Positions 183 to 33,249 of a DNA stretch of 35,491 nucleotides are shown piece after piece. Position 1 is the first letter of the stretch; each line of letters starts with the position of its first letter. Both the position numbers and the translations under genes were made by a program. Below the pieces are notes generated by a model that had not been told where the DNA came from, searched no databases, and saw only the letters and a program-made list of their open reading frames with translations. The DNA is from Acidithiobacillus sp. (GTDB lineage Bacteria; Pseudomonadota; Gammaproteobacteria; Acidithiobacillales; Acidithiobacillaceae): contig JAQVDS010000026.1 in the NCBI GenBank assembly GCA_028697715.1, positions 1 to 35,491 on the forward strand, given 5' to 3'.

Positions 183-258
183 GGGGGTGTAGCTCAGTCG
201 GTAGAGCAGCGGCCTTTTAAGCCGTGGGTCGAGGGTTCAAATCCCTCCGCTCCCACCA
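183..258 (+). tRNA. tRNA-Lys (anticodon TTT), chimeric at the attL site
   Basis: A 76-nt cloverleaf can be folded by eye. The acceptor arms are GGGGGTG (183-189) and CGCTCCC (248-254), followed by A and an encoded CCA (256-258). The anticodon loop CTTTTAA gives anticodon TTT, so the charge is lysine. The T-arm is GAGGG-TTCAAAT-CCCTC. The part from 213 onward belongs to the integrated element, because a second and different copy of the tRNA 3' half is found at 7565-7610. The gene should still be functional because the element restores the 3' half. Confidence 0.95.
213..230 (+). repeat. attL core (18-bp direct repeat)
   Basis: CCTTTTAAGCCGTGGGTC covers the anticodon loop, the 3' anticodon stem and the variable loop of tRNA-Lys. 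It is identical to 7565-7582. Homology breaks immediately upstream (GG at 211-212 against GC at 7563-7564), so strand exchange lies in or near the anticodon loop. Confidence 0.92.
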
Positions 259-305
259 TTAAAAACAGTTAGTTACAGGTTATTTCATCCTTTCAAAATG
301 CTGTC

Positions 306-457
306 ATGGGGCACTCTTGGGACACTAAGCCGCAACTCGCGGGCATCCTTGAGAACTCAGACCGCACCCTTTAGCCTTCCCTTTGGCGTCACCGAGACAA
401 CCGCCCGGCCTGTGGATAAGTGCCCCATTTTTTCCCGCGCTGCCCCATGAGTGTCCC
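306..457. repeat. Left-end inverted motif pairs, candidate integrase arm sites
   Basis: ATGGGGCA (306-313) and GGGACACT (319-326) recur in inverse orientation as TGCCCCAT (441-448) and AGTGTCCC (450-457); a further TGCCCCAT is at 421-428. GGGACACT also occurs twice near attR (7430-7437 and 7441-7448). Repeats shared by both ends of an integrated element are expected of arm-type recombinase or excisionase binding sites. Function is inferred. Confidence 0.45.
411..419 (-). promoter_or_regulatory. DnaA box, element left end
   Basis: TGTGGATAA is the perfect complement of the strong DnaA box TTATCCACA. A second perfect copy, in the other orientation, is at 7468-7476. In the excised circle the two would flank the attachment site about 300 bp apart. 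Confidence 0.45.
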
Positions 458-472
458 ATGCCTCATTATGGC

Positions 473-484
473 GGAATATATTCC
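473..484. promoter_or_regulatory. Perfect 12-bp palindrome, possible operator
   Basis: GGAATATATTCC is a perfect palindrome about 50 bp upstream of the candidate integrase promoter. It may be a dimeric repressor site. No regulator can be assigned. Confidence 0.25.
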
Positions 485-535
485 CTGATAATTCATTGCC
501 TTGTGTTGCGTATGCTTTGGCTTATTAAGCCCTTG

Positions 536-563
536 TTGCGCTTTTTTGCCGTGAATGTATAAT
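536..563 (+). promoter_or_regulatory. Candidate promoter of the integrase operon
   Basis: TATAAT at 558-563 is preceded by TG (extended -10), with a weak -35 TTGCGC at 536-541 and a 16-bp spacer. It is the best promoter-like sequence between the tRNA and the integrase. The 5' leader would be about 65 nt to the small ORF at 636. Confidence 0.45.
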
Positions 564-635
564 AAAAAACAGGCCGGGGGGTGTAATCAGCACCCGCCCG
601 ACCCTACCACCGCAAAGCCTAAGCAGGAGGCCGCA

Positions 636-692
636 ATGGATACCCTCAGTTTACCGCATACAGCGCCAGCCCTCACCCCTTGGAGGGCGTAA
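636..692 (+). CDS. 18-aa leader peptide upstream of the integrase
   Basis: ATG 636 follows a consensus Shine-Dalgarno AGGAGG (624-629) at 6-bp spacing. It opens an 18-codon ORF (MDTLSLPHTAPALTPWRA) ending with TAA at 690-692, two bases before the integrase ATG at 695. The better ribosome site belongs to this ORF, and its 3' end contains the integrase's own GGAGGG. This suggests translational coupling or a leader peptide. No homology is recognised and the peptide itself may have no function. Confidence 0.4.
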   Translation: MDTLSLPHTAPALTPWRA

Positions 693-694
693 CC

Positions 695-1759
695 ATGGCC
701 GCCATCGAGAAGCGCACCGGAGCCGACGGCAGCACCAGCTACCGGGTAAAAATCAGACTCAGGGGGCACCCTGTCCAGTCTGCCACCTTCGCCAGTCTCA
801 CCAAGGCCAAGCAGTGGGGCACCCAGACGGAAGCCGCCATAAGGGAAGGCCGCTATTTCCAGACGGCGGAAGGCAAACGCCACACTCTGGCGGAAGCTAT
901 CGAGCGATACGAGCGCGAGAAGCTGGGCACCATGCGGGCCAAGGACGCCCGAAAGCAGCACCTCGACTACTGGCGGGCAGAGCTTGGCACCCTCACGCTT
1001 GCCGACATTACCCCGGCCATCATCAAGGAACGCCTAGCACGTCTTGCCGATGAACCCAGCCAGCGCACCGGGAAGCTGCGGAGCGCGTCCACTCTGAACC
1101 ATTACCGGCAGGCCCTCGCCAGCGTCCTGACTGAGGCTGTCAAAAATTGGGAATGGCTGGACGCCTCGCCAATGGTGAAGGTGGGCAAGAAAACCGAGCC
1201 AAGGGGCCGCGTGCGTTTCCTGAGTGACGACGAGCGCGAGCGATTGCTTACCGCGTGCAAGGAGTCGAGCAACCCCGATTTATACTTGGCCGTTTTGCTG
1301 AGCTTGACGACAGGCGGCAGACAGGCCGAGACGATGGGCGCGACGTGGAAGCAGGTAGACCTGAGCCGGGCCACCCTACAGCTAGAGGAAACCAAGAACG
1401 GCACCCGCCGCGCTCTCCACCTTACCGTTCCAGTCTTGGAATTGCTCAGAGAACGGGCCAAGGTGCGCCGGATAGACACGGACTTGCTGTTCCCGTCCAA
1501 GGTGAACCCGCGCCAGCCCGTGGACCTGCGGCAGCCGTGGGAAAAAGCACTGCAAGCTGCTGATATTAAAGACTTCCACTGGCATGACCTGCGGCACACT
1601 TTCGCCAGCTATGCCGCCATGAGTGGGGCAACCCTTCCCGAACTCGCCGCGCTGCTGGGGCATAAGACGCTTGCGATGGTGCAGCGATATGCTCACCTGT
1701 CGCCTGCCCATACCGCCAAGATTGCCGAGCGGGTGGCCGCTCAGATGGTGCAGGCATGA
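695..1759 (+). CDS. Tyrosine recombinase (integrase)
   Basis: This site-specific recombinase should integrate and excise the element at tRNA-Lys. It is 354 aa from ATG 695, which has GGAGGG just upstream; an in-frame TTG at 680 is less likely. Residues about 1-60 form an arm-DNA-binding-like N-terminus (SYRVKIRLRG). Residues about 65-160 form the SAM-like core-binding domain. The catalytic domain from about 175 shows Arg209 (TTGGRQAE), His297 and Arg300 (HDLRHTF), His323 (LGHKT) and nucleophile Tyr332 (QRYAHLS). The length is typical of phage and island integrases. Its stop overlaps the next start in ATGA, so the two are translationally coupled. Confidence 0.96.
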   Translation: MAAIEKRTGADGSTSYRVKIRLRGHPVQSATFASLTKAKQWGTQTEAAIREGRYFQTAEGKRHTLAEAIERYEREKLGTMRAKDARKQHLDYWRAELGTLTLADITPAIIKERLARLADEPSQRTGKLRSASTLNHYRQALASVLTEAVKNWEWLDASPMVKVGKKTEPRGRVRFLSDDERERLLTACKESSNPDLYLAVLLSLTTGGRQAETMGATWKQVDLSRATLQLEETKNGTRRALHLTVPVLELLRERAKVRRIDTDLLFPSKVNPRQPVDLRQPWEKALQAADIKDFHWHDLRHTFASYAAMSGATLPELAALLGHKTLAMVQRYAHLSPAHTAKIAERVAAQMVQA

Positions 1760-2622
1760 GCGCCTATGACGCCGCCCCTTTCCCTGAAGAATTGCGCCGC
1801 CAGATTGCCGACGCCTTCGAGCAGGCGCACGCTGCGGGGGCAGAGCACTATGCACAAGCCTTCGAGCGTGCCCATGCTGAGGGGAAAATCTCAGATAGGC
1901 AATTTGCCCGCCATCGCATCGAGGGAGCACTTGCCGCGTGGCATCTGCAAGCGTGGCGGGATGCAGGCAGGCCGGAACCCATACCCGATGGTATTACGGC
2001 GGGAAGGCCGCCAATAGAGCGCGTGGGCATCCCTGCCGTGGACGCTGCGCTACCGCTCACCACCAAGCCCGCGCATGTATTCCTGAGTACCCTTGCCTAC
2101 CTAATGCGGGAGAGCGATGACGCCTTAGAGATTGCAGGCGCAAGGGCCGAGAAGTGCGACAGGGCCGCCGCCTTGCTCAGGGAGGCTGCCGAACTCTTGA
2201 AGCAGGCCGAAAACGAACCTCTAGGACACTTGGCGGCATCTCTCGCACCATGGGCAGAGCGCGCCAAGTTTGGGTGCGTGTATCCCACACGGTGGGAAGG
2301 TAGATACCTTTTTGCCGAACAGGAAATAGACGCTCTCAGCGCCAGCCTACAGGGGAAGCGAGGGAGGGCGACACGGCAAGCGGCAGTTATTAAGGCTCTG
2401 GCGGCGCTGTTTCCCCAAGAGCCGGTATTCTGGGAAGGCGGCGGGTATTCTCTCGCCGCAAGACTGGCGACGCTTTGCATAGGGCACAAAGTAACCCCCC
2501 AGGCAGTGAATAGCGTAGTCAAACAGGCCCAGCGAACAGCACCAGCACCCAAGCCGGAGCGTGCCAAGGAGAGAGACACCGGAGACTATCTGGTGCGCCT
2601 ATTTAGAAACCCTAAACAATAA
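1756..2622 (+). CDS. Hypothetical protein of the integrated element (288 aa)
   Basis: I do not recognise this protein. ATG 1756 overlaps the integrase stop, so it is co-translated with the integrase. The N-terminal 60 residues are Ala/Glu-rich and predicted helical. Residues about 125-155 form another charged helical segment (ALEIAGARAEKCDRAAALLREAAELLKQAEN). The C-terminal third (about 195-260) has an Arg/Lys-rich helical region and ends in a basic tail. There are no signal peptide or membrane segments. Position suggests an accessory role in integration or replication, but that is inference only. It is followed by a 120-bp gap that ends the first transcriptional block. Confidence 0.7.
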   Translation: MSAYDAAPFPEELRRQIADAFEQAHAAGAEHYAQAFERAHAEGKISDRQFARHRIEGALAAWHLQAWRDAGRPEPIPDGITAGRPPIERVGIPAVDAALPLTTKPAHVFLSTLAYLMRESDDALEIAGARAEKCDRAAALLREAAELLKQAENEPLGHLAASLAPWAERAKFGCVYPTRWEGRYLFAEQEIDALSASLQGKRGRATRQAAVIKALAALFPQEPVFWEGGGYSLAARLATLCIGHKVTPQAVNSVVKQAQRTAPAPKPERAKERDTGDYLVRLFRNPKQ

Positions 2623-2650
2623 TAGCCATTTTTACCCCCTAAATTGTTTA

Positions 2651-2670
2651 GCCCCTTAATTGGGGCATTT
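2651..2670 (+). terminator. Weak hairpin terminator after the integrase block
   Basis: GCCCC (2651-2655) pairs with GGGGC (2662-2666) around a TTAATT loop, followed by ATTTCC. The stem is short and the T-run poor, so termination would be partial at best. Confidence 0.3.
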
Positions 2671-2698
2671 CCGTTTAATAGTTGCCGTTTCTTACGCT

Positions 2699-2734
2699 CT
2701 CCACATCGCCGCAATAACGCGGCAATCTGTGGAG
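2699..2734 (+). promoter_or_regulatory. Leader hairpin covering the Shine-Dalgarno of the AlpA-like gene
   Basis: CTCCACA (2699-2705) pairs with TGTGGAG (2728-2734), and GCCGC (2708-2712) pairs with GCGGC (2719-2723) around AATAAC. The outer right arm contains GGAG (2731-2734), the ribosome-binding site for ATG 2744. As RNA it could hide the ribosome site; as DNA it could be an operator for the adjacent DNA-binding protein. Confidence 0.45.
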
Positions 2735-2743
2735 ACAGCACCC

Positions 2744-2971
2744 ATGCAAAACGCAACTGAAACCCCCGAATATAAAACCGTTGTACAGTTCGCTGAAAAG
2801 CATGACGCCTTTAGCGTTGGCGGACTCAGAAGCGCCATATTTTGGAAGCGCGCCGAACTGGAGCAGGCCGGGGCCATCGCGCAGATGGGGCGGCGCGTCC
2901 TGATAAATGAGCCGGTATTCCTGCAATTCGTGGCCTCTGGTGGCCTTAAATCTGTGCGAGGCTCGAAATGA
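2744..2971 (+). CDS. AlpA/excisionase-like small DNA-binding protein
   Basis: 75 aa from ATG 2744, preceded by GGAGA in the leader hairpin. The pattern is that of short helix-turn-helix proteins found beside replication genes of plasmids and islands: TVVQFAEKHDAFSVGGLRSAIFW, then a Gly-Arg-Arg wing (MGRRVLIN) and EPVFLQFV. The GRR wing is typical of AlpA- and MerR-like excisionase folds. It may act as recombination directionality factor for the integrase, or as regulator of the downstream replication genes. The stop overlaps the next start (ATGA at 2968). The family resemblance is from memory. Confidence 0.6.
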   Translation: MQNATETPEYKTVVQFAEKHDAFSVGGLRSAIFWKRAELEQAGAIAQMGRRVLINEPVFLQFVASGGLKSVRGSK

Positions 2972-3408
2972 GCCGCCGCAAGCAGCCGAGCCAGCCGGAC
3001 TTGCTGGCCGATATTTCCAGCCTCTCGCAATTCCCGCGCCGTAAGCCTAGACACCCCGCCAAGTTCGACGGGCCAAGGAATCCACGAGAAGCCCGCGCGC
3101 TGAGGGTGCTGTTAAAAACCTACTTGACGCGGGAAGCCCTCGACGAAGTGGCCGGAGCATCCAACGGGCCGGAAATCGTCAACCAACTGCGGAGCCGTGG
3201 TTTAGAGCTTCCATGCTACAGGCTGGGAACGATGGACCGTGACGGGGTTTGGGTTTACCGGGGCTTGTACGCCTTGAGCTACGGAGACAGGAGACAGGTA
3301 GCAAGGGCGCTCTCTGGTGGGGATGGTGGCGCGGGCAACGCCACCAAAGGAACAGCGCGAGAGACGGAAGCCAAGAGCAAAAAGGGAGGCCGCCGCTATG
3401 CAGAATGA
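2968..3408 (+). CDS. Winged-helix-like protein, possible replication initiator or regulator
   Basis: 146 aa from ATG 2968, overlapping the AlpA-like stop. Residues about 45-110 look like a small DNA-binding domain: helices in RALRVLLKTYLTREALDEVAG and SNGPEIVNQLRSRG, then strands CYRLGTMDRDGVWVYRGLYAL and DRRQVARAL. Similar domains occur in phage and plasmid replication regions. The N-terminus is basic and Pro-rich, and the C-terminal 35 residues are Gly/Lys-rich and disordered. As the only other candidate DNA-binding protein ahead of the primase and helicase genes, it might recognise the repeats at 6806-7208. That role is inference. Confidence 0.5.
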   Translation: MSRRKQPSQPDLLADISSLSQFPRRKPRHPAKFDGPRNPREARALRVLLKTYLTREALDEVAGASNGPEIVNQLRSRGLELPCYRLGTMDRDGVWVYRGLYALSYGDRRQVARALSGGDGGAGNATKGTARETEAKSKKGGRRYAE

Positions 3409-3502
3409 TAGCACATACAAGGAGATACGCAGCAACCTCGCCCGCCTTTGGTGGAACTTCCGCAAGCTGCGCCGGGCCTTGGGGGTGCAACATGGCAAAT
3501 AA
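3398..3502 (+). CDS. Small basic protein (34 aa)
   Basis: ATG 3398 lies 11 bp inside the previous gene and has GGGAGG about 10 bp upstream. The product is strongly basic (IRSNLARLWWNFRKLRRALG) and could form one amphipathic helix. Its end overlaps the next gene by 11 bp. It fits the tightly overlapped operon, but no family is recognised. Confidence 0.45.
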   Translation: MQNDSTYKEIRSNLARLWWNFRKLRRALGVQHGK

Positions 3503-4376
3503 CCCCATTGCAGCCTTTCGTGAAGCCTTGGCGTCTGCTGGTGTAATCCTTCACCCGTCCGAAACAATCCGCGCTGATGGTGTCTTGCATCGCGCCAGAA
3601 GTGCCGAGGATACGCCCGGCAAAGTGTCCTGCTGGTATCGCCTGCACCTCGACAATCCGCCCGCTGGCGCTGGTGGCGATTGGCGCACGGGGGCGCGGGT
3701 GAACTGGTGCGCCAAATCTCAGCGCTCACTTACCGCCAAGGAAAGGGACGAACTGCGCCAGCGTATCCAACGCGAGCAGGCCGAACGTAAGGCCGAGGAA
3801 CAGGCACGGCACCGGGAAGCCGCCCAGCGGGCTGCATGGGTATGGAATCATGCCCAGCCAGCCGACGCCCGGCACCCGTACCTATCACGCAAGCACCTTG
3901 CGCCCGGTATCGCCAGACAGCGCGGGGCCTCGCTGGTGCTGCCCGTTCTCGACTTTGGCGGATACCTGCGCGGGGTGCAGTACATACAGCCGGACGGGCA
4001 AAAACGATTCATTGCAGGCATGAAGAAAGCCGCCGCGTGGATACCTGCTGGCCCAAGGCCGGACGGAAGCCGCCCGCTCTGGATTGCCGAGGGCTGGGGC
4101 ACTGCCTGCGCTTTGCAGGCCATGCGCCCGGAAGTGTGCTGTGTCGCGGGCCTCGACGCCGGAAACCTCGCCAGCGTAGCCATAGAAGCCCGGAAACGCT
4201 GGCCCGCGCTGGATATTGTGATATGCCCGGACTTCGACGCGATAGGCCGCCAAAAAGGGCAGGAAGCGGCAGAGAAGGCCCGCGCCCGTATCGTTCCGCC
4301 GCCTGCTGATATTCCCCCAGGTGCTACGGATTGGCTGGACGTGCTGAACGCGCGGCAGGGGGTGGCCCATGCTTAG
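3492..4376 (+). CDS. Toprim-domain primase-like protein
   Basis: 294 aa from ATG 3492. The N-terminal 110 residues resemble the small non-catalytic region of plasmid and phage primases, with a charged coiled segment at about 82-113. Residues about 145-290 form a Toprim domain: Glu200 in WIAEGWGTA, and the acidic pair Asp247 and Asp249 in CPDFDAIG, the metal-binding signature shared by DnaG-type primases and topoisomerases. It probably synthesises primers or assists replication of the excised element together with the ATPase encoded next (8-bp overlap). No zinc-ribbon primase N-terminus is evident, so primase activity is inferred from family and context. Confidence 0.8.
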   Translation: MANNPIAAFREALASAGVILHPSETIRADGVLHRARSAEDTPGKVSCWYRLHLDNPPAGAGGDWRTGARVNWCAKSQRSLTAKERDELRQRIQREQAERKAEEQARHREAAQRAAWVWNHAQPADARHPYLSRKHLAPGIARQRGASLVLPVLDFGGYLRGVQYIQPDGQKRFIAGMKKAAAWIPAGPRPDGSRPLWIAEGWGTACALQAMRPEVCCVAGLDAGNLASVAIEARKRWPALDIVICPDFDAIGRQKGQEAAEKARARIVPPPADIPPGATDWLDVLNARQGVAHA

Positions 4377-5829
4377 CCCTGACGATTGGGACAGCGTGCC
4401 GCCCTACTCTGGCGACGAACAGCCCGCCAGCGCCGGGCCTGAGACACTGGAACCAGCGCCGCCAGTGGAAATCCCAACCGTGGACGTGGCCGGGTGTATC
4501 GACAACCCCTCACCCGCGCCGGATTTTGTCTGGGCGGACAGGATACCTCGCGGGCATGTTTGCCTGCTGTCCGGGCATGGTGGCGGCGGCAAATCAACGC
4601 TTGGCCTGCAACTCGCCGTAGCCGTGGCAATGGGTGCGCCGCTGCTGGGTGTAGGCACCGAGCGGGGCCGGGTGCTGGTATTCTCTGGCGAGGACGCGGG
4701 GCCACTGCTGCGCCATAGGCTGGCCGCCGTGTGCCGTAGTCTGGACGTGAACCCGCGCGCCTTGGCGGAAAAGCTGCTAGTGCTGGACGCTACCGGCGAG
4801 CCGGGGCTATATCGGGAACTGTCCGAGTTCGGACGGCATACCGTAGAGCCTACGCCGATATTCCACCGACTGGCGGAAATCATAGCCGAGCAACAGCCCG
4901 CGCTAATCGTGATTGATAACGCCTCGGACACCTACGAAGCCAGCGAAAACGACAGGGCGCAGGTGAGGGCTTTTGTCCGAGGGCTTGCGAACCTGAGCCG
5001 CCAGACTGAGAGCCGCCCAGCAGTGCTGCTACTCACCCATACGCCAAAGCAAGCGGTAGGGGGCCGGGGTGAGAGCTACAGCGGTAGCACGGCATGGCAT
5101 AACTCAGCACGCGCGCGCCTATCGCTTACGCCAGACAAGGACGACGCAAGCCGCGTAACCCTGAGCCTCGACAAGATGAACCTTGCACCAGCAACAGCCG
5201 AGCCGCTGCGCTTGGTGCGCTCACATGGTGGCGTACTGGTGCTGGACGATTCCGCCAGAGAGACAGACGACGCCGATGGCCTGCCCGAACTGCCAGAAAT
5301 CGCCCTGCTGCGGGTGCTGGCGGACTTCAACCGACGCGGGGAACACGTCAGCCCGGAACAGAGCGCGCGAAACAACGCATGGAAGATGCTGCGCCCAGAG
5401 CCGGGATTCCCAAAGCGCACCTACAAAGCCGCCGGGCCGCTGTTCGCCGCCATGAGGCAGGCAGAACGTGATGGGCTTATCGAGCGGGCCGGGTACGTCA
5501 ACGCGCACCGCAAGCGATACGAGGAATGGCTTTTGACCGCCAAAGGGTGGGAAGCAATCGGGGAATCTGCGCCCACTGCGCCCACCGCGCCCACGTCAGG
5601 GGTAAGCGCACTAGACGCAGGCTTGCCACAGGGTGCGCCTACCGCGCCCACCTCTGGGGCTAGAGAGTGTGAGAGAATAGGAGAGCGCACAAAGGTGAGC
5701 GCAAATCCCACTATGGCGGCACCTACCCCCCGCGAGCTTGGCACCAATCCCAGAGCGCAAGGCACAAACCCAAGAGCCAAGGGAACGAATCCCCGCGCAT
5801 TGCGTAAGCGCAAAGGGGGCGCGTCATGA
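4369..5829 (+). CDS. RepA-like AAA ATPase (replicative helicase type)
   Basis: 486 aa. The P-loop GHGGGGKST (69-77), Walker B LIVID (Asp183) and a sensor-like LLLTHTPKQA followed by SYSGSTAWHNSARARL (about 236-251) match the RepA/RecA-like hexameric helicase group of broad-host-range plasmids and islands. It would unwind DNA ahead of replication of the excised element. Residues about 300-395 form a winged-helix-like C-terminal region. The last 90 residues are low-complexity, with APTAPTSG repeats and three tandem GTNPRA units before a basic end (RKRKGG). ATG 4369 overlaps the primase gene by 8 bp. Confidence 0.85.
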   Translation: MLSPDDWDSVPPYSGDEQPASAGPETLEPAPPVEIPTVDVAGCIDNPSPAPDFVWADRIPRGHVCLLSGHGGGGKSTLGLQLAVAVAMGAPLLGVGTERGRVLVFSGEDAGPLLRHRLAAVCRSLDVNPRALAEKLLVLDATGEPGLYRELSEFGRHTVEPTPIFHRLAEIIAEQQPALIVIDNASDTYEASENDRAQVRAFVRGLANLSRQTESRPAVLLLTHTPKQAVGGRGESYSGSTAWHNSARARLSLTPDKDDASRVTLSLDKMNLAPATAEPLRLVRSHGGVLVLDDSARETDDADGLPELPEIALLRVLADFNRRGEHVSPEQSARNNAWKMLRPEPGFPKRTYKAAGPLFAAMRQAERDGLIERAGYVNAHRKRYEEWLLTAKGWEAIGESAPTAPTAPTSGVSALDAGLPQGAPTAPTSGARECERIGERTKVSANPTMAAPTPRELGTNPRAQGTNPRAKGTNPRALRKRKGGAS

Positions 5830-8428: not shown

Positions 8429-9679
8429 ATGACTGAAGAATCAGATAAAAGCGCCGCAAACCTGGACTTGGTAGCCCGTCAGGCCATCCTGGATGCCAAA
8501 GGCAACGTGCAGGCCTACGAATTGTTGGCGCGGGAAGAGTATAGCCCAACCGAAGACCCGTTTCTGGCTTCGGCACAGGTTTTGGTAAAGGTGTTTTCGA
8601 TCTACCAACTGGAGCAGCTTCTCGACGGGAAAAGAGCCTTTATCAATTTTACAAATAGTTTGTTTGATGAAAAAACGTTGGAATTGTTTCCCTGCGATCG
8701 CGTCGTTCCGGAGTTCACTATTACCGAAGCACCAAATCGCGAATTTTTGGGAAAAATACAGTACTTGAAGAAGGCTGGTTTTCGGATTTCCCTCGACAGG
8801 TTTTCTGGTAAAGCCTGGGAAGTTCCGCTGTTACCATGGATGAATTATGTAAAAATTGATGTGCACGAGATTGCTGCGGCGGATATGCAAAATTTACTGA
8901 AACTAGTCCGCGCACAGAAGTATGCTACCGGCATGCCGTTACTCATTGCTACCCGTGTAGAGACGCGGGAACAGGCGGCCAACTGTTTCGGCACTGGTTT
9001 TGACTGGAGTCAGGGATACTTTTTCATGCGGCCGCAAGTCGTGTCCAATCCTCGTGTCGGCAACGATCAAAGAAATCTCTTTCAGCTATTGAATTTGCTC
9101 TCCGAGGACGGACCGATTGATGAGATTGAGGAGGGCTTTCGTCGCGATCCGGCCTTGTCGGTGCAACTGCTGCGCTATCTTAATTCTGCGGGCATGCGCC
9201 GTGGTCGCGAAATCGATAGTATCCGGCAAGCCTTGCTTGTCTTGGGTCGAGTTCCCCTGCAACGCTGGCTGACGCTGCTTATGTTCACCAGTCAGGGGCC
9301 ACGCAAGCACTCCCTGCTGGCAATGGCCAGTAGCCGTGCGCGCCTTGCGGAATTGCTGCGCCAAGAGAGTACACATCTGGAGCAATCACCGGAGGCGTTG
9401 CACCGCTCATTTCTGGTGGGAATGTTGTCGCTGGTTGATGCCCTGTTCGACCAGCCGCTGATAGACATCCTGAAAGAACTGAAACTGCACCCCTCAATCA
9501 CTACGGCATTGTTGGAGCGTGATGGTGAGGATGGTGTCCTGCTCCGGCTTCTCGAGAGTGTAGAGCGGGGAGATTACCGGGCGATACAACAGTGGGCGAC
9601 CCAAGTGGGAGTTCCGGTGGAGAGCGTCAATCGCTTAGCCCTGGAGGCCATGGCCTGGACTGCGGCGCTGCCGCGTTAG
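8429..9679 (+). CDS. EAL-HDOD (YuxH-type) signalling protein
   Basis: 416 aa from ATG 8429, 7 bp after the globin-like gene. Residues about 10-205 form a divergent EAL domain: VARQAILDAKGNVQAYELLAR and, later, ISLDRFSGKAWEVPLL. The ELLAR motif is kept, but most metal and catalytic acids of active c-di-GMP phosphodiesterases are not evident. Residues about 215-410 form an HDOD domain (DPALSVQLLRYLNSAGM, IRQALLVLGRVPLQRWL). COG3434 proteins with this order are usually catalytically inactive regulators. The stop overlaps the convergent TonB-like gene by 4 bp. Confidence 0.85.
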   Translation: MTEESDKSAANLDLVARQAILDAKGNVQAYELLAREEYSPTEDPFLASAQVLVKVFSIYQLEQLLDGKRAFINFTNSLFDEKTLELFPCDRVVPEFTITEAPNREFLGKIQYLKKAGFRISLDRFSGKAWEVPLLPWMNYVKIDVHEIAAADMQNLLKLVRAQKYATGMPLLIATRVETREQAANCFGTGFDWSQGYFFMRPQVVSNPRVGNDQRNLFQLLNLLSEDGPIDEIEEGFRRDPALSVQLLRYLNSAGMRRGREIDSIRQALLVLGRVPLQRWLTLLMFTSQGPRKHSLLAMASSRARLAELLRQESTHLEQSPEALHRSFLVGMLSLVDALFDQPLIDILKELKLHPSITTALLERDGEDGVLLRLLESVERGDYRAIQQWATQVGVPVESVNRLALEAMAWTAALPR

Positions 9680-28572: not shown

Positions 28573-28632
28573 ATGCCAGCGTTTTCTGGGCCGGATCAGG
28601 CCACAGGCACACGTTGTTTGGTAAGAATTTGA
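28573..28632 (+). CDS. 19-aa leader ORF in frame with the MshEN-DUF202 gene
   Basis: ATG 28573 has a strong Shine-Dalgarno (GAGGGA at 28562-28567) and reads MPAFSGPDQATGTRCLVRI before TGA 28630-28632. The following gene continues in the same frame 9 bp later. It may be a translated leader whose termination site overlaps the next gene's GAGG (28631-28634), or the true N-terminus of that gene interrupted by a stop codon. Confidence 0.4.
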   Translation: MPAFSGPDQATGTRCLVRI

Positions 28633-28641
28633 GGTACGACG

Positions 28642-30171
28642 ATTAACGCACAAGTACAAGAAAAAGATCTGCAACTCCAGGAGCTGTCTGCTCGCTATGA
28701 CTGGCCCACGGTCGAGTACGACGAATCGCTGACCGCTTCCGCCGCCATTTTGCGCCGACTGAATGTCGATTCACTGCGCGACGAATTATGGTTGCCCATC
28801 CGCTGGGATGATGACAGCGCTGAAGTCATCGTTTGCAACCCGGAAGATCCGCAGCTCATAGAGCACATCCGCAGCTCTTTGGGGGTGCGGGAACTCCGCT
28901 TTCGGGTGACGACGCCGTCGGATCTCGTGCGTCTGATCGAAAACAGTGCGGACCTCAACGAGCATTTCCCCGTGTATGCCGGGCGTACACCCCTGGCCAA
29001 GGTGCGCACCTATCTGGCCGGGTTGCGTACCCGCTATTCAGCGCAGAGGACACAGTTTGCCCGCAGTCGCACCGGCTTGGCGTTGGCGCGCACGGGACTC
29101 ACCTTCATCACCATCGCAGTTGCGTTTCTGCGCCTGTTTGGCGCTGGCGACCTGTTGATTTTCGAAATACCACTGCTCCTCTTCGGCATCCTCGCCATCG
29201 TCGATGGCCTGCTGTGGTATTTTCCGGCACGGGGCGAGTCACGCCGGATCAAGGTCTATCCCCCCTATCCAGTGCCACAGGAATTTACCGCCCTCGCCGT
29301 CGTCGATCCGGGGGGCGCGATGACGTTTCAGCGCAGCGCCATCGTCGCCGGTAGTACGGCGTTACGGCAAGACTGGGATGCCCTCTCGCCAGTAGAGCGG
29401 CGCCGCTTCCTGGCCAACGACCGTACCAACCTCGCCGAAGAGCGAACCATATTGGCCTATCTGCGGGTGATGATGGCCAAGGCCCGCACCGGGCTTGCCT
29501 TTGCACGCACTGGAGTCGCTTTTGCCGGCGTGGGTATTGGTTTTATCCGTAAATTCCCTGCTGGCCCCTGGTCGGTCTTCGACTGGAGCCTCATTCTGAT
29601 CGGCGTGCTGATGTTGATCGAAGGCTTCCTCTGGTACGCGCCCGGGCGCCACGCCGCCAACAGGGCGCTGGCAGCCGTGGCCGAGAAGCGAGATGTCGTT
29701 GGCCCGTGGGACACAATCTTTCCTTCCCGCTGTCTCTATGCGCAGGGCATCGATCCGGTGGCAGAGGCCAACTCGCCGCAGGCTCAGCCTGGCGTCTTCG
29801 CTACTACCGGGCTCGCCCTGGAGCGCACCACCCTGGCAGACAAACGCAATACCATGTCGCGGCTGCGAACGATCATGGCGCGGGCGCGCACCGGCATGGC
29901 CTTTATCCGTACCGGCTTCAGTGTCATGACCGTGGGTGCCGGCCTTTTCGTGTATTTTCACTTTACCGGCCACGTCGACATTGTCTGGACGCTCTTCGAC
30001 CTTGCCCTGGTCTTGGCCGGGCTGTATCTGATTGGTGATGGTTTACTCTGGTACCTCCCCGCGGAGCGGATCAAACGTCGCTCTGCCTACGTCGACAACG
30101 ACTTCGAAATCGCTGATGCAGACTACAGTCTGCCGCGCAGCGCCTGGAAGCGAGAGCTCTACCGTGAGTGA
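28642..30171 (+). CDS. GspE/MshE N-terminal-like domain fused to three DUF202-like membrane modules
   Basis: 509 aa if started at ATT 28642, the only plausible codon behind a GAGG ribosome site (28631-28634). The next standard-type start, TTG 28750, would cut a segment conserved in the neighbouring gene. Residues about 12-105 match the second half of a GspE/MshE N-terminal domain (LWLPIRWDDDSAEVIVCNPEDPQ). Three membrane modules follow at about 114-200, 259-337 and 390-478. Each has an Arg-Thr ladder (RT at 7-residue steps, then ARTGLA and RTG), two membrane helices and an end like GLLWYxPAxR. Function unknown; see findings. Confidence 0.75.
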   Translation: MNAQVQEKDLQLQELSARYDWPTVEYDESLTASAAILRRLNVDSLRDELWLPIRWDDDSAEVIVCNPEDPQLIEHIRSSLGVRELRFRVTTPSDLVRLIENSADLNEHFPVYAGRTPLAKVRTYLAGLRTRYSAQRTQFARSRTGLALARTGLTFITIAVAFLRLFGAGDLLIFEIPLLLFGILAIVDGLLWYFPARGESRRIKVYPPYPVPQEFTALAVVDPGGAMTFQRSAIVAGSTALRQDWDALSPVERRRFLANDRTNLAEERTILAYLRVMMAKARTGLAFARTGVAFAGVGIGFIRKFPAGPWSVFDWSLILIGVLMLIEGFLWYAPGRHAANRALAAVAEKRDVVGPWDTIFPSRCLYAQGIDPVAEANSPQAQPGVFATTGLALERTTLADKRNTMSRLRTIMARARTGMAFIRTGFSVMTVGAGLFVYFHFTGHVDIVWTLFDLALVLAGLYLIGDGLLWYLPAERIKRRSAYVDNDFEIADADYSLPRSAWKRELYRE

Positions 30172-31348
30172 CGACTTACGCATCTATGATGCCCTGCTCG
30201 ATAGAGGTGTTCTCACCACTGCGGAATTGATGGAGGCAAAGCGTCAGGCGGCTTGGCGTGGCATCGAGCTGGAGCGCGTTCTGCTGAGGGACTTTGCCGT
30301 AGCGCGTTGCGATTTGCTGACTGCGCTGGCAAAGCGTTACGGCTGCGCCTTCGCGCAATACGACGAGCGCTTGCCGATCCCTACCGAGCTCTTCGCAGGC
30401 CTGGATGCCAAGCTACTGCGAATGAATCTCTGGTTTCCGCTGCGGCGCGTCGACGACACGGTCATCATTGCCGCAGCCGATCCCAGCAATGAAGCGATGC
30501 GAGAAGAGGTACGGCGACTCATTCTCGCGCCGCACTACGAGTTTCGTGTTGCCCTACGCGAAGACATCCGCTGGTATATCCAGGACTACCTGCATGCCGA
30601 AGCATCGTTTCTCATCGGCATCGAACGCACGGGGCTTGCCTACTGGCGCAACACCATGGCGCATTGGCGCACCAAGCTGGCGGCACATCGTACGGCCCAT
30701 GCCCGCGCGCGGACATCAATGAAGCTCCTGCGCTGGGGCTTGACCCTGGTGGCCATATCCAGTGTAGTCTCGCATTTTCCGCACTCATTTCTGGCTCCCT
30801 ACCACTTGCCCATCTTGCTCTCGGGTGCGGTGCTGGCCGGTTTCGGATTGCTTGATTATCTCCAGGTGCGACGAGCGCGTATGGACTTGCCGTGCCAACG
30901 CGCGCTGATCGATATCACCACGCAAAATATCCGCTTTACCGAGCGTTATCATCTCCCCGAAGCGCCCATGGAAGCCGAGGACCAATCGGCGCTTGCCAAG
31001 CTCGCTGCCGCAATTCCCAACTACTGTTCGGTGTTGCGTCCGGTGCCCGCGAGTAAGGAACGCACCCATCTGGCGCGAGAACGCAATATCCTCGCCGCGC
31101 AACGGACTATCGCGGCCAGCCATCGTACCTCCTACGCTAGAGCCAGAACGGGGTTGTCCCTGATTCGTACGGGTGTTTCCTTCGTCGGCCTGGGCATTGC
31201 CATGCACAAGCTGCTGAATGCCAGCGCCTATAGTTTTACCGACTATGTTCTCATTGGCGCAGGATGTCTGATGTTCATCGATGGGCTTCTCTGGTACCTG
31301 CCCGCACGTCGTCTCAAATATGGTATCGGCCGCGACAGTAAACCTTGA
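30164..31348 (+). CDS. MshEN-type domain fused to two DUF202-like membrane modules
   Basis: 394 aa from GTG 30164, overlapping the preceding stop by 8 bp, so both are co-translated. Residues about 5-140 form a complete GspE/MshE N-terminal domain. Its two helical motifs RIYDALLDRGVLTTAELMEAK and ELERVLLRDFAVARCDLLTAL resemble the RLGxxLxxxGxxxxxxLxxxL pattern that binds c-di-GMP in MshE; a strand-helix half then has LWFPLRRVDDTVIIAAADP. Modules at about 153-236 and 298-383 carry Arg-Thr ladders and paired membrane helices. The first module is degenerate (ends GLLDYLQVRR). No ATPase domain is present. Confidence 0.85.
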   Translation: MSDDLRIYDALLDRGVLTTAELMEAKRQAAWRGIELERVLLRDFAVARCDLLTALAKRYGCAFAQYDERLPIPTELFAGLDAKLLRMNLWFPLRRVDDTVIIAAADPSNEAMREEVRRLILAPHYEFRVALREDIRWYIQDYLHAEASFLIGIERTGLAYWRNTMAHWRTKLAAHRTAHARARTSMKLLRWGLTLVAISSVVSHFPHSFLAPYHLPILLSGAVLAGFGLLDYLQVRRARMDLPCQRALIDITTQNIRFTERYHLPEAPMEAEDQSALAKLAAAIPNYCSVLRPVPASKERTHLARERNILAAQRTIAASHRTSYARARTGLSLIRTGVSFVGLGIAMHKLLNASAYSFTDYVLIGAGCLMFIDGLLWYLPARRLKYGIGRDSKP

Positions 31349-31351
31349 CCT

Positions 31352-31379
31352 AAAAAAGGTGGTCAGATATCGACCACCT
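31352..31379 (-). terminator. Rho-independent terminator after the porin-DsrE operon
   Basis: AGGTGGTC (31357-31364) pairs perfectly with GACCACCT (31372-31379) around a 7-nt loop. On the minus strand the hairpin is followed by a T-run (31357-31352). It lies 24 bp after the DsrE-like gene. It could also act weakly on the plus-strand gene that ends at 31348. Confidence 0.75.
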
Positions 31380-31403
31380 CAAGCGGGCTGAGAAAGCCTG
31401 AAA

Positions 31404-31910
31404 TTATGGTTTTACATAGTCAAAGCCGTGCGACTCCAGTTGCATGATGCGCACGATTCCCGCCGGAACGATGACTACTGACGGGTCGAGGGGAGGCAGG
31501 TGACCGGTCTTCTTTTTGAACGCCTCCATGCTGTTGTGACAGACATCAAATTCCACCCCCTCGGCGTTGATGGCAGCAATGCGGTCCGCGATTCCCTTGT
31601 TTTTCGGCAGGTACATCTTGATGCCGGGACCAAAGGCCACGACGACGATCTGCACCTGCTCCTGCCCAAAATAATTGAGTAAATTCTGCGCATTGTTGAG
31701 TGTCAGGTTCCAGCGCGCGGGTTCGGCCTGACTGACCTGCAGTACTACTTTGGCTTTGGCGAAGGGGTGGTCATGTGTGAAGCTCGGTTTACTGTAATTG
31801 AAATCGTGCAGCATCGACACATTGGCCCAGGCTGGACTTGTCCCGAGCACGAGGAATAGCGGAATGCCAAGCGTAAAGAGAACGTGGCGGAATAGCGAAG
31901 AGTGACGCAT
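31404..31910 (-). CDS. Periplasmic DsrE-family protein
   Basis: 168 aa from ATG 31910, with AAGGAG 7 bp upstream. Residues about 1-29 form a Sec signal peptide (LFTLGIPLFLVLGTSPAWA). The mature part has the DsrE fold pattern: KVVLQVSQAEP, ALNNAQNLL-like LTLNNAQNLLNYFG, QIVVVAFGPGIKMYL and GVEFDVCHNSMEAF, with a single conserved-looking Cys. Cytoplasmic DsrE proteins carry sulfur; an exported form with one Cys could handle sulfur compounds in the periplasm, but this is inference. It lies 19 bp after the porin gene and shares its operon. Confidence 0.82.
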   Translation of the reverse strand: MRHSSLFRHVLFTLGIPLFLVLGTSPAWANVSMLHDFNYSKPSFTHDHPFAKAKVVLQVSQAEPARWNLTLNNAQNLLNYFGQEQVQIVVVAFGPGIKMYLPKNKGIADRIAAINAEGVEFDVCHNSMEAFKKKTGHLPPLDPSVVIVPAGIVRIMQLESHGFDYVKP

Positions 31911-31929
31911 TTTGGGGCTCCTTATAACG

Positions 31930-33249
31930 TTAGAAAGCAATCATTGCTTGCAGGGCAAAGACATTATCGACAGCGCTGGCTACGCTCTCACTGGTGGCGT
32001 TCGGATGGGGAACATCCAGCGTGCGGAAATAATATCCCGCCATCACCTTGGTCAATGGCGTGAAATGGTATTGCAAACCCAGCGCATAGGTCTTGAAAAT
32101 CCGGTTTTGGGCAGGATTGTTGGGCAGGCGGTTGTAGTAATCGTACCGCAGATTTACTTCAATGTTTTTGGTCAGGAAAAGTCCGCCTTCCACCATATAC
32201 CCCCAAGCCTTGTTGCCAATGCCCGGATACAACTGGGTTTGGTACAGTGCTGCCTTTTTCAGATCGGCCTTGTTGAAGGCTGCAGGTGCATCGATCCAAC
32301 CGTTGCCGCGCATATATTCAAAACGAAACTGCCGACCCCAGCGATGCATGTATCCCTGCAGGTATTGCAAGTCGACACCGTAGCGGTTCATGTCATAATT
32401 CGTGCCATCAAAACGGGGTACGGCATGCTGGTACCAGATACCACCCTGAATATCGCTGCGGAACGGTCCTTTCCCGCCAAGGATATACGCTTCTTGCAAG
32501 CGCACCGCTTCCATAGGCTCGTTCGATTGGTTGCCTGCGGCGACGGTACCGTACATGCCGACCATGGCACCGTAGGTGAACTCCCAGGGGCCGTTGCGAA
32601 ACCAGTCAAAGACCATGGCGCCGGGGTAGCGATAGCCATTGACGCCCAGTTTTTCCGTGCCGGGAATCAGGTAGCCGGCGGGGCTATCTTTGCTGATGTA
32701 GGCGGAATTCAGCATGGGCTGGTCCATCAACTGGTTGATGACCGTCGCGCTGATGACATAATTATAACTCATAAAGCCCTGCATGGCGCCTTCGCTACTC
32801 GGAGCGCGAATCAGGCCCATCTCCACCCGGGCTCCGGGGATGTAGCTGAAAGTGACGTGACCATCGATCAAACCCGGCTGGTATCCGCCCCGTACACGGG
32901 TAAAGCCATTATTGCCAAATTCCCCGGCGACAAAGTACGAAATATTGGGATTCAGGTTCCCGCGAAACATGATGCGGGCGCGCAAAATCCCAGCGGTCGT
33001 ACCATGGCTAAAGTCTGGGCCGACCAGGTTGATGTGTGGTACCTCATGCAGCAGCCCATCTTCCGTGCCGGGTTGCGCCCAGATCGTCGGCTCGATAAAG
33101 CCCGATACCCCAAACAATGGCGCTTTCGCCGGAGAAATGCCCTGCAGTTCGAACCAGTTTGCGGCTTCAGCCCCCGGTGCATACAGAAGGCCAGCAGCGA
33201 GCGCGGCAGATACTACGCCAGACAACAGTAGCGGTTTCGTTCTGATCAT
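31930..33249 (-). CDS. Outer-membrane beta-barrel porin
   Basis: 439 aa from ATG 33249, with AGGGGTG upstream. Residues 1-29 are a signal peptide (LLSGVVSAALAAGLLYAPGAEA). The rest alternates hydrophobic and polar residues as in a barrel (NISYFVAGEFGNNGF, VTFSYIPGARVEMGL, VNLRYDYYNRL, ALGLQYHFTPLTKVMAGYYF) and ends in Phe (ALQAMIAF), as needed for outer-membrane insertion. It most resembles OprO/OprP-like porins. The substrate is unknown. Coupling to a periplasmic DsrE-like protein suggests uptake or export of a sulfur compound. Confidence 0.82.
   Translation of the reverse strand: MIRTKPLLLSGVVSAALAAGLLYAPGAEAANWFELQGISPAKAPLFGVSGFIEPTIWAQPGTEDGLLHEVPHINLVGPDFSHGTTAGILRARIMFRGNLNPNISYFVAGEFGNNGFTRVRGGYQPGLIDGHVTFSYIPGARVEMGLIRAPSSEGAMQGFMSYNYVISATVINQLMDQPMLNSAYISKDSPAGYLIPGTEKLGVNGYRYPGAMVFDWFRNGPWEFTYGAMVGMYGTVAAGNQSNEPMEAVRLQEAYILGGKGPFRSDIQGGIWYQHAVPRFDGTNYDMNRYGVDLQYLQGYMHRWGRQFRFEYMRGNGWIDAPAAFNKADLKKAALYQTQLYPGIGNKAWGYMVEGGLFLTKNIEVNLRYDYYNRLPNNPAQNRIFKTYALGLQYHFTPLTKVMAGYYFRTLDVPHPNATSESVASAVDNVFALQAMIAF

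Follow-up and report, generated by a model that had tools for sequence, protein, structure and literature searches.

The 35,491-nt stretch of Acidithiobacillus sp. DNA analyzed here (contig JAQVDS010000026.1, positions 1–35,491; the window) carries two overlapping genes, gene 1 and gene 2, whose products join an N-terminal part of the MshEN type to three and two DUF202-type membrane modules, respectively (Table 1). Our preferred, still tentative reading is that the two proteins may assemble into one pseudo-pentameric, arginine-lined tube related to VTC, the yeast polyphosphate polymerase/channel, and the tube is predicted to carry or retain a polyanion, with polyphosphate as the likeliest. Polyphosphate is the weakest step of this reading. 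The observations behind it are the two domain types, a fixed 3+2 module count, a position-specific module identity across phyla, 29 conserved ladder arginines and a register with VTC. A preliminary description of the locus had placed the two genes, with their 8-bp overlap, at the coordinates reproduced here; the 3+2 = 5 count, the VTC register and the conserved neighbours go beyond it, and the pair is more regular than it had noted.

Compared as whole proteins with PF02656 (DUF202; cut-off 23.4 bits), gene 1 scored 43.7 bits in four stretches and gene 2 18.9 bits. Taken one at a time, all 30 modules tested, drawn from the window and five other loci, matched PF02656 at E ≤ 0.1. Given the Pfam scores and the single-module matches, the earlier calls of DUF202-like modules stand, gene 2 falling under the cut-off as a whole protein only. 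The similarity to DUF202/YidH-type proteins is that every tested module matches PF02656; two DUF202 proteins of the ordinary kind in this genome have one PF02656 stretch each, whereas the pair has three and two modules with ladders.

The ladders consist of heptad-spaced arginines, five or six per ladder and 29 over the five modules. At every one of the 29 positions, R makes up at least 97% of the residues aligned in two 121-row alignments (one per protein). Mean conservation is 0.999 at the ladder arginine, 0.97 at the next heptad position (mostly T or N) and 0.72–0.88 at the others, with R-T-x-L/M-A-x-x as the commonest heptad pattern. The Arg-Thr ladder of the preliminary description was recovered, but the RTG ending attributed to it is present in four of the five window modules, gene 2 module 1 ending in RWG. 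Ladder segments of the window contain 8–9 K/R and 0–3 D/E, and in each module the hydrophobic segment around the first membrane helix takes in one ladder arginine (R150, R289, R423, R190 and R335); this segment runs into that of the second helix in gene 1 module 1. AlphaFold2 (AF2) models of the single chains (gene 1, pLDDT 78.8 and pTM 0.71; gene 2, pLDDT 76.8 and pTM 0.50) predict all five modules to be hairpins, with a first helix of 51–58 residues and a return helix, in line with the membrane proteins originally proposed.

Protein searches (E ≤ 0.001) returned 854 homologues of gene 1 and 943 of gene 2, and 120 listed homologues of each were used for counting. Three ladders were found in 119 of the 120 listed gene 1 homologues (P0018, a 338-aa fragment, is the one that differs) and two in all 120 listed gene 2 homologues, so that the module copy numbers first read in the window are kept. 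In a locus scan with one genome per species (GTDB 220), 110 places encoded a gene 2 relative, of which 80 were kept. A three-then-two ladder order was observed in 69 of 81 loci (these 80 plus the window), which bears out the pairing of the two genes. The 12 irregular loci were judged by their coordinates: in seven of them (L019, L021, L042, L048, L075, L082 and L083) gene 1 is missing wholly or partly because of a contig end or a broken frame; among the others, L012 and L066 are in pieces, a single gene 2 ladder was seen by pattern in L049, L024 has an additional gene-1-like gene upstream, and L013 has a spurious third open reading frame (ORF).

Judged by record title, the pair occurs in Acidithiobacillus and relatives, Acidihalobacter, other Gammaproteobacteria, Nitrospirae, Desulfobulbaceae (including Candidatus Electronema), other ‘Deltaproteobacteria’ and a few bins labelled Deferribacteres, Actinomycetes or Actinobacteria. 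Gene 2 was detected at E < 1e-100 in 40 of 395 sampled genomes of the phylum of locus L026 (titled Nitrospirae), one of them (G767) with a broken copy, and gene 1 at the same threshold in 16 of 29 Acidithiobacillaceae genomes, in each of which gene 2 or a piece of it adjoins. Among 398 genomes of the window's own phylum, full-length gene 2 was found in the window's own genome only, and the 83 other matches are partial, mostly to MshEN. An 873-aa frame of G767, considered as a gene 2–histidine kinase fusion, leaves gene 2 in mid-module 2 and enters the kinase, and was taken for a frameshift. No natural gene 1–gene 2 fusion was established, no search having been aimed at longer fusions. At L024:6509-8152, an extra gene-1-like protein (MshEN plus three DUF202 stretches) lies immediately upstream of the pair. 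Among open-licence PMC papers, a scope that makes the absence weak, we found none joining DUF202 with MshEN or DUF202 with Acidithiobacillus.

A tree of the modules (95 rows, nominally five from each of 19 loci, with L049 lacking gene 2 rows) grouped them by position across phyla and not by organism. Modules 1, 2 and 3 of gene 1 each formed a single group of 19 (supports 98/98, 98/100 and 100/99), and modules 1 and 2 of gene 2 grouped likewise, except for two rows from the unrelated L013 ORF. The alignment has few columns and the inner forks are uncertain; by their position-wise grouping, the five positions were already distinct before these lineages parted.

The register with VTC was obtained through the two ordinary DUF202 proteins of the genome (L001 and L002, on another contig). 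Their profile finds Vtc1 in PDB (9umg, 8i6v and 7ytj; best E 0.0075) and matches Vtc4 weakly (best E 0.069). Position 1 of PF02656 corresponds to R275 of gene 1 and to residue 103 of both ordinary proteins, and in their alignment with Vtc1 residue 103 falls on K24 and residue 110 on R31; the register via PF02656 thus sets R275 of gene 1 on Vtc1 K24 and R282 on R31. In the passages of PMC9911596 that deal with its architecture, VTC is a Vtc1, Vtc3 and Vtc4 pentamer at 3:1:1 whose channel is made of five TM1 helices, with Vtc1 K24 and R31 among the basic residues of the wall. R275 and R282 therefore fall on VTC pore-lining positions, and the module 2 ladder extends the VTC basic stripe three heptads further toward the N terminus. 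Together with the 3+2 = 5 modules, this register suggests a pseudo-pentameric tube containing one copy of each protein.

As far as those passages describe VTC, it has in common with the pair DUF202-type membrane helices, five units and heptad-spaced basic residues. In VTC, SPX and polymerase domains are present, each unit has three transmembrane helices, Vtc1 forms chains of its own and the basic stripe is shorter; the pair has MshEN, combines its five units in two chains, and has in each unit two predicted transmembrane helices and a ladder of five or six arginines. A Pfam scan of both chains showed neither SPX nor polyphosphate-polymerase domains (for SPX no genome-wide search was made), and the pair is therefore not classed as a VTC complex. 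DUF202 is mentioned together with polyphosphate in papers that include one on dinoflagellate SPX proteins. A polyphosphate kinase of the genome (PF02503, 201 bits) indicates that the polymer can be made.

Several results weigh against a polyphosphate-conducting tube. The module profile itself does not match VTC sequences in PDB, so the link runs via the ordinary DUF202 proteins at a modest E of 0.0075, and VTC is absent among the 50 Foldseek matches listed for either chain. The AF2 models are of single chains only, with a pTM of only 0.50 for gene 2; two membrane helices are predicted per module compared with the three of a VTC subunit; and five modules per pair are no proof of one copy per chain in a complex. 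The polyphosphate kinase lies on a contig other than that of the pair and, since 7 of 14 control genomes have one too, is not very informative, and the VTC polymerase domain PF09359, which matches 3 of 14 control genomes, is unmatched in this genome. Finally, the named conserved neighbours (see below) indicate sulfur metabolism and signalling instead.

An MshE-type N-terminal domain in both proteins, as the preliminary description had it, was confirmed by hidden Markov model search with PF05157 (MshEN; gene 1, 44.4 bits; gene 2, 58.9 bits; cut-off 23.1) and by fold, with hits to MshE and XpsE. The description of the domain as partial was right for window gene 1, which lacks the helical N-terminal half and aligns to MshE and XpsE from their residue ∼44–49 onward. 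Unlike the MshEN (T2SSE_N) of MshE, PilB, XpsE and GspE ATPases and of NfrB, that of the pair is accompanied by neither an ATPase nor a glycosyltransferase domain: none was found in the Pfam scan of both chains, in agreement with the original claim on the ATPase, and the PilB model matches gene 2 only over residues 8–149. Three other loci (L086–L088) have ∼770-aa frames whose MshEN matches the gene 2 profile well; L086 is a GspE-type ATPase, and such proteins are a possible source of the domain.

The preliminary description had suggested a nucleotide-responsive membrane complex, with cyclic di-GMP (c-di-GMP) signalling as plausible. With NF053729, the NCBI model of the c-di-GMP motif (curated cut-off 38 bits), gene 2 scored 12.0 bits and gene 1 was unmatched, whereas a CheA-like protein of the same genome, the positive control, passed at 39.6 bits. 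Unlike c-di-GMP-binding MshEN domains, the window proteins thus do not retain the motif at the curated cut-off. Weak matches to the model were seen in 12 of 19 gene 2 sequences (best E 4.6e-5) and 3 of 21 gene 1 sequences (best E 0.0098). The published motif, as given in the sections of PMC5013675 that define it, contains two RLG...Q; by hand count, R-I-Y...A and E-L-E...R replace them in window gene 2; the second R, the two G and the two Q are lost and the first R (R6) is kept. A regular expression of the motif hit 0 of 120 listed homologues of either gene, and its relaxed pattern also missed the CheA-like control and the GspE-type loci L086–L088; the verdict is based on the curated profile and not on the regular expression. 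The EAL-HDOD protein at 8429–9679 (+), formerly taken as support for c-di-GMP signalling, has a partial EAL match (profile 105–236 of 236; 30.1 bits, below the cut-off of 31.3) and is probably not an active phosphodiesterase. A nucleotide-responsive complex is possible; c-di-GMP as its ligand is not supported.

Neighbouring genes were assigned by tblastn with reference proteins. The Nitrospirota/Desulfobacterota-type group (65 loci) is defined by exclusion and includes a few bins with other labels. Downstream of the pair, in the 49 of these loci with at least 4.5 kb available, a histidine kinase (44 loci), a receiver (46) and a phosphoenolpyruvate (PEP)-synthase-like (PPDK-like) protein (39) were found on the same strand within 6 kb. 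Upstream, in the 49 with at least 3.5 kb, TauE and Alph_Pro_TM were present in 24 loci each and two Usp references in 22 each. The PPDK-like protein shares ATP-binding and phosphohistidine domains with PEP synthase but differs from it in its N- and C-terminal parts, which are unassigned. Its close form, defined by E up to 1e-190 (a cut chosen after viewing the list), was present in 36 of the 40 genomes that carry the pair vs. 9 of the 355 that do not (the 395 genomes of the L026 phylum). In the window's genome, the best candidate for such a partner matched at 36% over residues 133–596 of 879; it lacks the N- and C-terminal parts and is probably an ordinary PEP synthase.

In Acidithiobacillaceae, a DsrE-like gene adjoins the pair in 10 of 11 loci and a probable outer-membrane barrel neighbours it in 9 of 11, window included in both counts; both genes are kept beside the pair in two different arrangements, which speaks for a functional tie. 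The barrel was considered as a polyphosphate-selective porin and rejected, having no Pfam match over the cut-off, no NCBIfam match and two PDB sequence matches at E 0.3 and 1.

Some of these neighbours argue for other readings. The pair could be a membrane sensor and not a channel, with ladders that bind an anion or polyanion and MshEN-like domains that signal to the adjacent histidine kinase and receiver. This alternative, which we hold to be unlikely, draws on the frequency of kinase, receiver and PPDK-like genes beside the pair and on the co-occurrence of the close PPDK-like form with it. However, no match to any of the three lies within 6 kb of the pair in the 11 Acidithiobacillaceae loci (5 of which hold 4.5 kb downstream) or in 4 other proteobacterial loci (3 of which hold 4.5 kb downstream), where the pair seems therefore able to work without them; these 4 are also without the other listed neighbours, except L014, with TauE and Alph_Pro_TM on the opposite strand. 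Sulfur anions (sulfite, thiosulfate, polythionates, polysulfides) in place of polyphosphate as the cargo of the tube would fit the upstream TauE and the adjoining DsrE-like gene, and also dsrA, which was detected in 38 of the 40 L026-phylum genomes that have the pair and in 140 of the 355 that lack it. Shared descent may lie behind much of the dsrA link, the TauE name does not fix a substrate, and VTC, the DUF202 relative with a known ligand, handles polyphosphate in the relevant passages of PMC9911596; we regard this option as improbable.

A similarly low probability is given to ladders that are structural, their Arg and Thr packing helices or binding lipid head groups in poreless proteins that scaffold other membrane proteins: the few acidic residues of the ladder segments leave little balance for their K/R, and arginine is the most conserved heptad position, which is unusual for mere packing. 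The c-di-GMP-responsive complex is very improbable in our estimate. The MshEN fold of both proteins, the weak model matches among homologues and the retained R6 are in its favour, but the scores of the pair with the curated model, the other motif residues lost from gene 2 and the absence from window gene 1 of the domain half that holds the motif argue against it.

The earlier placement of the gene 1 start at 28642 fits an unusual ATT start. The frame has an in-frame TGA at 28630 upstream, ATT at 28642 and a closing TGA that ends at 30171. The distance from the Shine-Dalgarno-like TGAGGT to ATT is six bases; there is no ATG, GTG or TTG between the upstream stop and the VEY core of the domain, and the first canonical start codon is TTG at 28750, within the MshEN match. 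When 14 Acidithiobacillaceae loci (window included; loci L093–L106) were aligned by eye, ATT (3), ATA (8) or ATC (2) was present at the matching position in 13. In six loci the stretch before the domain core is without any ATG, GTG or TTG, and the remaining eight have canonical codons further up or within the domain. ATT, ATA and ATC are also isoleucine codons, and with canonical alternatives in 8 of 14 loci conservation alone is no proof of initiation there; gene 1 of Acidithiobacillaceae probably starts with ATT, ATA or ATC. AUU starts are known for infC and pcnB.

Elsewhere in the window, the region 183–5829, in which a tRNA-Lys precedes genes for a phage-type integrase, a Toprim protein and an AAA_25 protein, resembles an integrated mobile element. 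Terminator-like sites numbered 5 vs. 2.3 expected in shuffles.

Table 1. Features of the gene pair and its surroundings (window positions unless a locus is given).
Feature	Position	Strand	Remarks
Predicted gene 1 translation start	28630..28644	+	Sequence; Shine-Dalgarno-like TGAGGT 28630-28635, ATT 28642-28644
Gene 1, 509 aa	28642..30171	+	MshEN-like N-terminal part, then three DUF202 modules
MshEN match of gene 1	28723..28944	+	Residues 28-101; Pfam 44.4 bits
Gene 1 module 1	28984..29244	+	Ladder R115-R150, return helix to residue 201
Gene 1 module 2	29389..29691	+	Ladder R254-R289, return helix to residue 350; best DUF202 match
Gene 1 module 3	29791..30081	+	Ladder R395-R423, return helix to residue 480
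Gene 1/gene 2 overlap	30164..30171	+	8 bp
Gene 2, 394 aa	30164..31348	+	GTG start; MshEN domain and two DUF202 modules
MshEN domain of gene 2	30170..30592	+	Fold match residues 3-143, Pfam 68-147
Gene 2 module 1	30626..30880	+	Ladder R155-R190, return helix to residue 239
Gene 2 module 2	31061..31333	+	Ladder R300-R335, return helix to residue 390
Terminator-like hairpin	31356..31380	-	10-pair stem, T run; between the pair and the convergent DsrE-like gene
DsrE/F-like protein	31404..31940	-	E 2.4e-4, 21.7 bits, just below cut-off 22.7
Probable outer-membrane barrel	31930..33249	-	No Pfam match above cut-off
PEP-synthase-like (PPDK-like) protein, 879 aa	L026:12938-15577		ATP-binding and phosphohistidine domains

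On the preferred reading, a tube of five DUF202 modules, each module would be a hairpin of helices, the long first one forming the wall of the tube. The ladder would run from the cytosol into the membrane, and up to six arginine tiers would lead a polyanion to the pore. The MshEN-like domains would be located in the cytosol at the tube mouth, where they may act as a gate or as a dock for a partner, probably not via c-di-GMP. In the Nitrospirota/Desulfobacterota-type loci, this gate would be linked to the histidine kinase, receiver and PEP-synthase-like protein encoded next to the pair. A bolder proposal would make the pair a bacterial counterpart of the VTC channel, a two-chain (3+2) tube that threads polyphosphate or another linear polyanion across the inner membrane while the PEP-synthase-like neighbour, as an ATP-binding and phosphohistidine phosphotransferase, makes or loads the polymer at the mouth; this we consider clearly unlikely.

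In Pfam, DUF202 is still a domain of unknown function, and the ways in which bacteria carry long polyanions over the inner membrane, or shelter them, are an open question. The gene pair bears on both families represented in it: (i) MshEN gains a case in which the fold is kept without the c-di-GMP motif and outside ATPases; and (ii) the fixed five-module count and the 29 conserved arginines lead to a testable claim, that DUF202 modules assemble in fives around an anion path.

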